Positions 58,336 through 61,777 of a stretch of 64,000 nucleotides of DNA are shown piece by piece (position 1 is the stretch's first letter; every line of letters begins with the position of its first letter). A model generated the notes under the pieces. The model ran no database searches, was not told where the DNA came from, and was given only the letters and a program-made list of their open reading frames with translations. Made by a program: the position numbers and the translations under genes. Source of the stretch: an uncultured Scytonema sp. Its GTDB lineage: Bacteria; Cyanobacteriota; Cyanobacteriia; Cyanobacteriales; Nostocaceae. Where the stretch lies: contig CALMVQ010000309.1 in assembly GCA_937873135.1 (NCBI GenBank), positions 1 to 64,000 of the forward strand. Direction: 5' to 3'.

Positions 58336-59214
58336 ATGAGGCAATCTCTAGGAATTTTTCAACATGTTTTGCTATTGGTGACTCCATTGATAGCAACTTC
58401 TGCGCTTTTCATCCCACCTGGGAAGGCTGCAACTCTAGCGACATCGGAAGGAGACTTAAGTTTTACCAACTTTAGCGAAAGTTTTTCGACAATCGTAAAA
58501 CAAAATCAGGGTGAGACTTCGGCTTTTTCTAACGGTGGCATTGTCAACGTTCAGAATCAAGCAAATACAAATTCTACAGATAATCCACCTACAGCATCGA
58601 CTTCGGCTTTGAGTTCAGCTTTTGGTGAGAGTAAAGATTACTTGGGATTAGCAGAAACAAGAGCGAAAATTATTAGTAACTTTGATGTAGATGCTAGTAA
58701 ACCTTTTTCTTTTGACTTCAACACGACTTTAGATTTGGAAACATCAATCGATCAGTCACCTATTGAAAATGCTCGAGCAATTGGAAATATATCTTTCTTA
58801 CTATTCGACACTAGTGATATTCCAAAACCAAATCTTCCCGACTTTTTGTCTCACTTATTAGATAAGACAAATAATAGTATTCAAAAAAGCCCTTTAGACT
58901 TCTTCTTTCTGACAGGCAATTTAAATATTTTAAGTAATAATAATGTTATCACATATCAAAAAAGTCAAAATATTACCTTAAGTAATGAATTTAAACAGTT
59001 TAGTTTTGAAGGAAATCAAGAAATTGCTCAAGTTTCAATTACAGGTTCTTTTCAGCGTTCCTTTAATAATCCAGCTAATTTAACATTAATAGCAGTTAGG
59101 AGCAATCAAGCGAGAGTTGTTGCTCCCGAACCTTCACTAAACCTAGCTTTAATCTTATTCTGTGGGTTAGTTGTCGTTGCTACTAAAAAAAGACATCAAG
59201 CAACTCATCGGTAA
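58336..59214 (+). CDS. Secreted PEP-CTERM-like protein
   Basis: 292 residues. A signal peptide (IFQHVLLLVTPLIATSALFI) is followed by an acidic, Asn/Ser-rich mature domain with GGIVNVQNQANTNST and FDFNTTLDLETSI. The C-terminus VVAPEPSLNLALILFCGLVV then ATKKRHQ has the PEP motif, hydrophobic helix and basic tail of PEP-CTERM sorting signals handled by exosortase. The mature domain is not recognised. The ATG has no strong Shine-Dalgarno. Confidence 0.7.
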   Translation: MRQSLGIFQHVLLLVTPLIATSALFIPPGKAATLATSEGDLSFTNFSESFSTIVKQNQGETSAFSNGGIVNVQNQANTNSTDNPPTASTSALSSAFGESKDYLGLAETRAKIISNFDVDASKPFSFDFNTTLDLETSIDQSPIENARAIGNISFLLFDTSDIPKPNLPDFLSHLLDKTNNSIQKSPLDFFFLTGNLNILSNNNVITYQKSQNITLSNEFKQFSFEGNQEIAQVSITGSFQRSFNNPANLTLIAVRSNQARVVAPEPSLNLALILFCGLVVVATKKRHQATHR

Positions 59215-59916: not shown

Positions 59917-60393
59917 TTAGAAATCGTAAGTGCGACTGTAGACACTATTATATAGATTGTCAGGATGAATTTTTGGTTCCTCAATAACAGATTGAATTGG
60001 TTCAGATACGTAAACACTATTGAACTCGTGGTTGGGATGAATTTTTTGCTCCTCCACAACTGCTTTGACAGCGTCAGATGCGGCTAGTGCCTTAACACCA
60101 GCAGCAGATATTTCAATTGGAACCGAACCTAATACATCAGGATCGGCAAGTTCTTTGCCGCCAAAGTCCTGGATAATTTTCCGAATATAGTCTAAAGCCA
60201 GCTTTGCTGAGTGGCGTATTGCTTCCATCGCCACTCTTCTCTCAGCACGCGATAACCGCGAGTTATTCCGTCTTCCAGCTTGCTCAACATCCAGAAAGAC
60301 GATCACGCTCACTTTCTGTTGCGGCGCTAAATTTTTTAATCGACAGGCAAACTCAGAACTGATCTTGTTTTTAAATGGATTTTGTTGATACAT
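59917..60393 (-). CDS. Free-standing propeptide-like (inhibitor I9-type) partner of the adjacent protease
   Basis: 158 residues. Residues about 25-125 (KVSVIVFLDVEQAG, ERRVAMEAIRHSAKLALDYI, VPIEISAAGVKALAASDAVK, AVVEEQKIHPN) line up with the N-terminal prodomain of the protease encoded just upstream (AIVIYETPQIEGS, RRVAIRAAKELHDDYQEASQ, VTRKTLEALAEQPNVVAVLP, NQKIHL). The C-terminal 45 residues hold a tandem repeat: EEQKIHPNHEFNSVY and EEPKIHPDNLYNSVY. No signal peptide is seen. The gene starts 25 bp after the protease stop, so they are co-transcribed. It may be an intramolecular-chaperone homolog acting in trans, or an inhibitor; neither is proven. Confidence 0.75.
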   Translation of the reverse strand: MYQQNPFKNKISSEFACRLKNLAPQQKVSVIVFLDVEQAGRRNNSRLSRAERRVAMEAIRHSAKLALDYIRKIIQDFGGKELADPDVLGSVPIEISAAGVKALAASDAVKAVVEEQKIHPNHEFNSVYVSEPIQSVIEEPKIHPDNLYNSVYSRTYDF

Positions 60394-60418
60394 AATGATA
60401 CAATCCCCAAGATGCTCC

Positions 60419-61777
60419 TTAACTAAGAGCTTTTAGAGCGTCTAAAGGTTGAACTAAGCCCCATCCCCAACGATTGTCTGGGCGACGACCGTTTCCCTTC
60501 GGGTGTGTTGCTGTTTTCTTTAGAACATCAATTATATCTGTTATGTCTGCTGTTGGCTCAGCTGCCATTAGTAAGGCAGCAATGCCTGCAACGTGCGGGG
60601 TTGCCATAGAAGTGCCATCCATGTAGTTATATTCGTAGGTTCCATGTGGAGTTTTCGTCGGCGGTATACAAGAGTAGATCTGACCACCTGGGGCAACAAC
60701 ATCAGGTTTTGTTACCAAATGTCTCAGTTCATCTCCTGGGAATACGAGGCTTGCGCCGCTACTAAAGAAAGCGACATCAACCTGATTGTCTGGCAGCTTT
60801 TCTATTGCACCCACACTAAAGGCATTGTAAGCATTGCCAGGTGAGCTGGTATTACCGTGGTTTTCGTTGCCGATCGCCACTACAGGTAAAATACCATACT
60901 GCTTCACTAGTATGTCAAGTACCTCAGCGAATAATGGTTCGTAATAGCTTAAGCCTAAGGACATATTGATAATATCCGCTCCTTTTTCGATCGCCCAGGA
61001 AATCCCCTCCAATAAGGTTCGCAATGTCGTATCGCCGATCAGCACACCACCGACTAACAAATTAGCTTGCGGTGCGACGCCAATAGAAACACCTTTTGAG
61101 GTCTTACCGCCGACGATCGTGCCACAAACGTGAGTCCCATGCTGTGCGCTATCAAAGGCTGGAGATGCACTTATCCTCCTCCCTAGCGGATCGATAACGA
61201 CAAATTCTTTGACTCGGTCTTTAAGTGCTGGGTGAGCCGCATACACGCCAGTGTCAAGCACCGCTACGTTGATATTCTCTCCCAAGGTGGTTTCCCATAG
61301 CTGAGGAATCCCTAGCTGTTTCAATCCCCAAGTGAGGTTATCTTTGTGTTCCAAAGCAATTAATTCAGAATAATCAACCTTTCGGGGCTGAATAAGATGA
61401 ATTTTCTGATTGGGTAAAACAGCAACGACATTAGGCTGTTCTGCTAAGGCTTCTAGGGTCTTGCGAGTTACCTCAACCGACGCCACTGGCAATGCACCAG
61501 ATCCAATGGTAGAAACTTCTAGCAGTCCATCCCGATAACCCAAGTCTTGACTTGCTTCTTGATAATCATCATGAAGCTCTTTAGCTGCTCTGATGGCAAC
61601 CCGTCGTTGAACTTGAAGTTGCTCCAGGCGTTGTTTGAGTTCACGCAGACGACCCCGTGGCGGCGAACCCTCAATTTGCGGTGTTTCGTAGATCACAATT
61701 GCATCCCGCTTGTCGTCTTGCCCCATTTCGGCAAGGAACGGCTCAAAAGCTGGGGAAATTTTATTTTCTGGATCCAC
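60419..61777 (-). CDS. Subtilisin-like serine protease, S8 family
   Basis: 452 residues. Residues about 20-130 are an I9-like prodomain. The catalytic triad lies in VAVLDTGVYAAHP (Asp), QHGTHVCGTIVGG (His) and MDGTSMATPHVAGIAALLMA (Ser); the oxyanion Asn is in VAIGNENHGNTSSPGNA. No signal peptide is visible, so it may act in the cytosol or be exported unconventionally. The operon contains the free prodomain-like gene downstream. Family length is normal. Confidence 0.92.
   Translation of the reverse strand: MDPENKISPAFEPFLAEMGQDDKRDAIVIYETPQIEGSPPRGRLRELKQRLEQLQVQRRVAIRAAKELHDDYQEASQDLGYRDGLLEVSTIGSGALPVASVEVTRKTLEALAEQPNVVAVLPNQKIHLIQPRKVDYSELIALEHKDNLTWGLKQLGIPQLWETTLGENINVAVLDTGVYAAHPALKDRVKEFVVIDPLGRRISASPAFDSAQHGTHVCGTIVGGKTSKGVSIGVAPQANLLVGGVLIGDTTLRTLLEGISWAIEKGADIINMSLGLSYYEPLFAEVLDILVKQYGILPVVAIGNENHGNTSSPGNAYNAFSVGAIEKLPDNQVDVAFFSSGASLVFPGDELRHLVTKPDVVAPGGQIYSCIPPTKTPHGTYEYNYMDGTSMATPHVAGIAALLMAAEPTADITDIIDVLKKTATHPKGNGRRPDNRWGWGLVQPLDALKALS

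Follow-up and report, generated by a model that had tools for sequence, protein, structure and literature searches.

The window, the entire stretch of 64,000 nucleotides analysed here, carries a gene for a subtilisin-like (S8) protease and, directly downstream on the same strand, a small gene whose product resembles the N-terminal prodomain of the protease itself (Table 1). The protease scored 171.6 bits with the Pfam Peptidase_S8 model (cut-off 21.8 bits), which places it in the S8 family, and its triad and oxyanion residues (D175, H213, N304 and S390) are invariant in eight aligned protease homologues. All four catalytic motif patterns are complete in 16 of 17 distinct protease frames longer than 400 aa that were picked for carrying LD[TS]GV, the remaining frame (L064) missing the exact GNENHG pattern only. 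The prodomain that precedes the catalytic domain, here termed the cis prodomain, is a divergent I9-like region in which Pfam Inhibitor_I9 aligns with residues 100-128 at 17.3 bits (E 0.008), under the 21.2-bit cut-off. In PADLOC the protease weakly resembles the 'subtilase' and IetS models, and we do not claim it as a defence gene.

The earlier note, seeing no signal peptide on either protein, had supposed that the system may be cytosolic. Crude hydropathy agrees with this proposal: no signal-like N-terminus was seen on the protease or the small protein, the best 12-residue means of the pair being 0.70 and 1.53 where three exported proteins reach 2.0-2.5, and the protease is probably cytosolic. 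The window genome has further S8 genes (L005-L010); in the flanks fetched for these, no small open reading frame convincingly matched the profiles of the small-protein (trans) family, the flanks giving two weak A6 matches at E 0.03 and 0.09. A scan of viral contigs returned 18 loci at 26-34% identity, and a phage search 30 records.

Table 1. Coordinates of the protease gene, the small gene and their parts in the window
Feature	Position	Strand	Basis
S8 (subtilisin-like) protease, 452 aa, GTG start	60419..61777	-	Pfam Peptidase_S8, 3.1e-50
Cis prodomain, protease residues 1-131, divergent I9-like	61385..61777	-	Sub-threshold Pfam Inhibitor_I9
L-I-Q-P (LI.P) closing the cis prodomain; possible plug	61385..61396	-	LI.P in 18/18 cis sequences
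Catalytic domain, protease residues 166-440	60458..61282	-	Pfam match
Gap, protease stop to small-gene start, 25 nt	60394..60418	-	
Trans prodomain-like protein, 158 aa	59917..60393	-	ORF; homology to cis prodomain
Prodomain-homologous core, small-protein residues 8-119	60037..60372	-	BLASTP alignment; hhalign
E114-x-Q116 of the trans protein; cis counterpart P-N-Q	60046..60054	-	Alignments
Repeat copy 1, VVEEQKIHPNHEFNSVY, residues 112-128	60010..60060	-	Repeat comparison
Repeat copy 2, VIEEPKIHPDNLYNSVY, residues 136-152, Rhizonema only	59938..59988	-	Repeat comparison

Homology of the small protein to the cis prodomain

That the 158-residue protein matches the prodomain of the protease in order and lacks a catalytic domain, as the earlier note had claimed, was borne out. 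BLASTP aligned it collinearly with protease residues 4-127 (30% identity, E 5e-6), and comparison of the small-protein family with the cis-prodomain family by hhalign gave a probability of 98% and an E value of 2.2e-13 over 119 columns. Homology to an S8 prodomain is the I9-family feature that the small protein displays; none of the 11 members of the cyanobacterial trans alignment matched the I9 family (PF05922) at its gathering score, PF05922 had no match at E 0.01 in the whole window genome, and the small protein itself had no Pfam, NCBIfam or PADLOC match at the limits used. Searched against the whole window genome, it recovered itself, the N-terminus of the protease (E 0.11) and one other match (E 0.42), located in a frame read as a peptide synthetase. 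Profile searches of the PDB with the cyanobacterial trans family, or with the cis prodomain alone, returned no propeptide, and AlphaFold models were of low confidence both for the small protein (pLDDT 45.7, pTM 0.38) and for the docking model, a Brasilonema read-through of protease and partner (pLDDT 38.1). A putative I9 fold of the small protein is suggested by its homology to the cis prodomain together with the weak I9 matches. An N-terminal coding extension of the small gene in L035 and L036 was dismissed (dN/dS 1.2 on 9 differences); with the extension judged to be non-coding, MKIS was taken as the start.

When 18 cis and 13 trans domains were placed in one tree, each kind formed a single clade (100/100), indicating that the duplication is older than the sampled cyanobacteria. 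The dN/dS values of eight pairs of trans sequences were 0.157, 0.181, 0.175, 0.441, 0.074, 0.021, 0.23 and 0.032, seven of them below 0.25 (the pair at 0.074 has a dS of 2.7), and a ninth pair was saturated. Judged by these ratios, the small gene is under purifying selection.

Beyond the pair, a frame at window positions 59359-59712 matches an oxidoreductase-like gene and looks decayed; the gene is present at full length beside the pair in Brasilonema (L014:5456-6640). Positions 58336-59214 encode a protein with an N-terminal hydrophobic segment and a C-terminus that we read as PEP-CTERM-like, with relatives encoded next to the pair in Brasilonema and in genus g28.

The C-terminal ends and the repeat tail

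The tandem repeat that the earlier note had seen at the C-terminus of the small protein proved to be real, and is restricted to Rhizonema among the homologues compared. The two 17-residue copies are identical at 37 of 51 nt, and none of 20,000 shuffles was as good, the boundaries having been chosen after the repeat was seen. All four Rhizonema sequences (the window, L011, L012 and L013) contain the repeat, and it is absent from both Brasilonema sequences (128 aa) and from the more distant homologues compared, which is the variation across cyanobacteria that the earlier note had proposed to look for.

The trans and cis domains also differ at their ends. All 13 trans tails carry E-x-Q, the E and Q being invariant in the 11 aligned trans sequences, and all 18 cis tails carry P-N-Q...L-I-x-P, the L-I-x-P element being absent from the 13 trans tails compared. 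The trans proteins that are least like that of the window (L035-L038) reach no further than the alignment position at which the cis L-I ends, and in this they resemble a released propeptide; the other nine of the 13 extend 1-37 residues beyond that point, 37 being reached in Rhizonema only.

Co-inheritance of the two genes in Cyanobacteria

Within the order, the small gene was matched in 12 of 388 genomes (narrow profile A1, E 0.001) and the protease in 17 of 388, in every case at E 1.4e-231 or better; the two draws of 388 genomes were taken as the same set, and the wider alignment used for the protease supersedes an earlier search with a narrow alignment that had found it in 3 of 195 genomes at E 1e-90. 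The earlier note would have given up its proposal had the small protein not co-occurred with a protease in other genomes. Co-occurrence was found: ten of the 12 genomes with the small gene also encode the protease and, in all ten, the small gene lies directly downstream on the same strand, indicating that the pair is co-inherited. Fisher tests gave 6.5e-14 for genomes, related genomes not being independent, and 1e-9 for genera, which are likewise not independent (small gene in 7 of 8 genera with the protease versus 2 of 141 others). Comparison of 11 loci points the same way, as the protease/small-gene family was the sole one common to all, g83 having the protease alone and g56 the small gene alone, and other neighbour families were common to at most three lineages.

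Outside this set, the wider profile matched four of 386 genomes in a phylum-wide sample, namely the window, a fragment in G155, the N-terminus of the protease in G140, and G395. The last belongs to another order and has protease and small gene side by side on one strand, separated by at least 360 nt. A scan of GTDB contigs yielded five loci, all five with the pair. Altogether the adjacent pair was seen in 15 distinct genomes, L013 and G361 being the same contig.

The partnership is, however, not obligatory. Seven genomes of seven species, all of genus g83, carry the protease without the small gene, and their proteases keep the four catalytic motifs; the small gene was sought in G140 with the wider profile as well, which matched only the N-terminus of the protease, and in the other six with A1. 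Conversely, G024 has an intact small gene near a contig end and no orthologous protease (its best S8 match being at 2.6e-30), and G155 retains a 55-codon fragment of the small gene and has no close protease match. The absence from g83 is most simply read as loss, since g83 nests, with weak support, among gene-bearing lineages in the cis tree. Stops apparently inside the small gene of G300, G200 and G358 were read as matches running beyond the end of the gene, and were discounted because stop-free frames there span the core. In G216, one of the 15 genomes with the adjacent pair, a TAA (L032:7304-7306) separates the prodomain of the orthologous protease from its catalytic domain at a position where relatives have Q; this may be a sequencing error, a pseudogene or a split gene.

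Similar gene pairs on plasmids of other bacteria

A tblastn search of plasmids with the window protease gave five records at 1e-40, three of them with a small downstream gene. On an Azospirillum plasmid the S8 gene is followed by a small gene of 114 aa; the small gene of a Rhizobium plasmid encodes 102 aa that are 39.6% identical to the Azospirillum protein (3e-16), the S8 domain there forming the C-terminal end of a 1652-residue protein; and on a Piscinibacter plasmid the small downstream gene is an unannotated frame of 130 codons, the next annotated gene not being I9-like. No small downstream partner was found for two haloarchaeal plasmid S8 genes; in Haloarcula, a hypothetical gene of 99 aa located 430 nt downstream was compared with the Deinococcus profile only. 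A Vibrio protease is followed by a gene of 75 aa, and its relatives at 1e-45 comprise 11 records (three identical Vibrio, four Deinococcus, two Streptomyces, Methylobacterium and Palleronia), every one with a small downstream gene. One Deinococcus partner lies 300 nt away and was detected by profile at 2e-9, and one Streptomyces small gene overlaps the protease gene by 4 nt. On the crude hydropathy scale, the sole basis on which signal-like N-termini were judged, intermediate values were obtained for AzoP (1.68) and D. deserti (1.70).

Pfam I9 was listed for five of 14 plasmid-type small proteins, solo relatives included, at E 0.066-0.2, all under the cut-off, not significant for the whole library and top-ranked in only two; when ten of them were scanned in both directions I9 was listed for four forwards and none reversed. 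A profile of eight plasmid small proteins had as its best PDB match 8c4x_B (E 0.0058), an 81-residue chain labelled 'Protease' that, on our own reading of the alignment, appears to be a propeptide. Propeptide-type chains made up five of the 15 matches, among them weak matches to the propeptides of Tk-subtilisin (3vv2_B, E 0.32) and subtilisin E (1scj_B, E 1.2), the remainder being acyl carrier proteins, designed proteins and aldolases. The propeptides of Tk-subtilisin and subtilisin E are a portion of the protease precursor, with no separate gene. Among comparison S8 genes, which were hand-chosen rather than random, I9 was listed for none of six small neighbours scanned in Geobacillus, Bacillus licheniformis, Cytobacillus and Paenibacillus, and a transporter gene follows a second Deinococcus S8 gene; the downstream sides of the S8 genes in Bacillus velezensis, two Streptomyces and Halocatena fall wholly or partly outside this comparison.

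A common origin of all the trans groups was considered and is not established, as comparisons of profiles with column-shuffled versions were mixed. Eight of the 15 pairs compared without Piscinibacter were at 0/60 shuffles, two at 1/60 and five at 4-15/60 (cyTrans-viTrans 10, cyTrans-viCis 9, alTrans-alCis 15, alTrans-viTrans 13 and alTrans-viCis 4), and the hhalign probability was high for cyTrans-cyCis (98%) and alCis-viCis (95%) only, the rest being below 10%. Five of the six Piscinibacter pairs were at 0/100 shuffles and alCis-pisTrans at 1/100, with probabilities of 3-55%.

Several single loci are recorded here in their own right. On a second Piscinibacter plasmid, an unannotated frame (L084:4686-5405) shares the I9-like end, with no S8 gene found in the 6.8 kb fetched. 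Vibrio relatives of the plasmid small protein stand beside toxin-antitoxin genes (L115:2501-2728 and L116:2501-2728), no annotated S8 gene lying within 2.5 kb of them, and the Vibrio pair (L106) is flanked by a gene annotated as DndB on one side and a gene for a DNA cytosine methyltransferase on the other, a few small genes intervening. The Streptomyces avidinii protease (L111:1146-2457) is annotated as two overlapping genes, one for the prodomain and one for the catalytic domain, through a frameshift or recoding. In a Bradyrhizobium gene annotated as an IS110 transposase (L082:2743-4344), the N-terminal part of the product is an S8 protease that the element has apparently cut.

Discussion

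The comparisons of sequence and gene order support the view that the window encodes a separate, second prodomain-like protein that is co-inherited with the protease. What such a protein would do is a matter of weighing several roles. One might argue that it aids the folding of the catalytic domain in trans, for in mesophilic bacterial subtilases the propeptide is described as an obligatory chaperone as well as an inhibitor (PMC10580911), and the order of the genes, protease and then partner, can be counted in favour. The protease, however, retains its own prodomain in all 18 cis sequences, and the persistence of a conserved protease with intact catalytic motifs in the seven g83 species, among 17 protease genomes, argues against an obligate folding partner; the intermolecular chaperone put forward in the earlier note is thus unlikely. 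The small protein could act as an activator or competitor: by displacing the cis prodomain, whose L-I-x-P may be a plug resistant to cleavage, it would free or prime the enzyme. The restriction of L-I-x-P to the cis tails fits such a role, as does the LIPY/F motif that plugs the active site of intracellular subtilisins (PMC6220982). In PMC6993865, however, the stand-alone propeptide-like proteins that are named act as inhibitors, and we regard activation as quite improbable.

A target other than the neighbouring enzyme, such as other or foreign subtilases, is still less probable: solo copies do occur, in G024 and among those relatives of the plasmid-encoded small proteins whose fetched surroundings showed no protease, but the two genes are adjacent in every cyanobacterial genome seen with both. 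Even less credence is due to the proposal that the protease cuts the C-terminal repeats of the protein, which would then be a substrate or a signal precursor; the 17-residue repeat of Rhizonema invites it, but the core is conserved in Brasilonema and distant homologues that have no repeat, and a tail confined to one genus leaves this suggestion of the earlier note unsupported. It is barely conceivable that the gene is what remains, in decay, of a protease gene that had been duplicated: its absence from g83 and the fragment in G155 could be cited for this, but its dN/dS is low and it has been kept across two orders of Cyanobacteria.

The reading that we favour, at a probability of roughly 0.6, is that the small protein is a dedicated, propeptide-like inhibitor acting in trans on the neighbouring, probably cytosolic subtilase, derived from an old duplication of the prodomain and inherited together with its target. 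A trans inhibitor was among the proposals of the earlier note, and it fits best with the homology, adjacency, purifying selection and separate clades; inhibition itself is a prediction from sequence, made because the named stand-alone propeptide-like proteins are inhibitors (PMC6993865). According to this model, duplication of the protease's own I9-like prodomain would have given rise to a separate small gene, and the two would have been passed on as a two-gene unit. The catalytic domain would receive the trans protein on the face that binds propeptides, and the C-terminal strand of the trans protein would lie close to the active site. E114 and Q116, presumably the equivalents of acidic residues of the BPN' propeptide by our own alignment to a BPN' sequence, would cap two surface helices of the catalytic domain. 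In the propeptides of BPN' and SUB1-ProM, acidic residues are described as capping two such helices (PMC6993865). The trans protein would restrain protease molecules whose own prodomain is gone, such that the ratio of protease to inhibitor would determine intracellular proteolysis. By analogy, the cis L-I-x-P may work like the LIPY/F motif, which blocks the active site of intracellular subtilisins (PMC6220982) and whose proline shifts the bond away from the catalytic serine (PMC6220982; PMC3901451).

Stand-alone I9-like inhibitors are known from eukaryotes (PMC6993865). The closest parallel is SUB1-ProM of Plasmodium, a stand-alone propeptide-like protein encoded by a conserved gene adjoining subtilisin genes, as is the case here, and a potent, selective inhibitor, whereas the window protein is a candidate inhibitor by its sequence; SUB1-ProM is eukaryotic with a predicted secretory signal, in contrast to a bacterial protein encoded directly downstream on the same strand and with no signal-like N-terminus (PMC6993865). 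Pleurotus peptidase A inhibitor 1, yeast peptidase B inhibitor, Arabidopsis subtilisin propeptide-like inhibitor 1 and TgMIC5 are likewise small, separate propeptide mimics of eukaryotes (PMC6993865). Eukaryotic inhibitors of this type were compared with the proteins studied here through the Pfam and PDB searches only. To our knowledge, they have no cognate operon partner. Our search of the open-access literature, with subscription papers and preprints outside its scope, turned up no bacterial protein described as a separately encoded, I9-like partner of an S8 protease.

Among bacteria, silencing of cytosolic subtilases is known to us mainly from Bacillus-type intracellular subtilisins (ISP) and their inhibitor IPI. 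Like that system, the pair combines an S8 protease, here probably cytosolic, with an L-I motif that includes proline, here a possible plug, and with a separate small protein, here a candidate inhibitor (PMC6220982; PMC3901451). The ISP propeptide, however, has about 18-20 residues and LIPY/F, in contrast to a cis prodomain of about 130 residues with LI.P (PMC6220982), so that the window protease lacks the short LIPY/F propeptide of an ISP, and IPI has an Ig-like fold whereas the partner here is homologous to the cis prodomain (PMC3901451). Trypsin-Trypco pairs of conflict systems also couple a peptidase with a small co-occurring neighbour, the peptidase and the domain both being different from those of the window pair (PMC7159879).

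The similar, unlabelled pairs on plasmids of distant bacteria suggest that a bacterial means of controlling dangerous proteases may have been overlooked. We tentatively put forward a general, unrecognised bacterial module, in which a cytosolic subtilase with a cis prodomain would be held in check by a downstream I9-like, antitoxin-like brake on a potentially lethal protease; its range would cover Cyanobacteria, Pseudomonadota, Deinococcota and Actinomycetota, and it would often be plasmid-borne. A prodomain copy encoded in trans would be a natural experiment that sets inhibition apart from intramolecular chaperoning, and such pairs would be a source of selective subtilase inhibitors. With the pair kept in two cyanobacterial orders and look-alikes in other phyla, this reading would assign a function to many small 'hypothetical' or unannotated genes adjoining S8 proteases.
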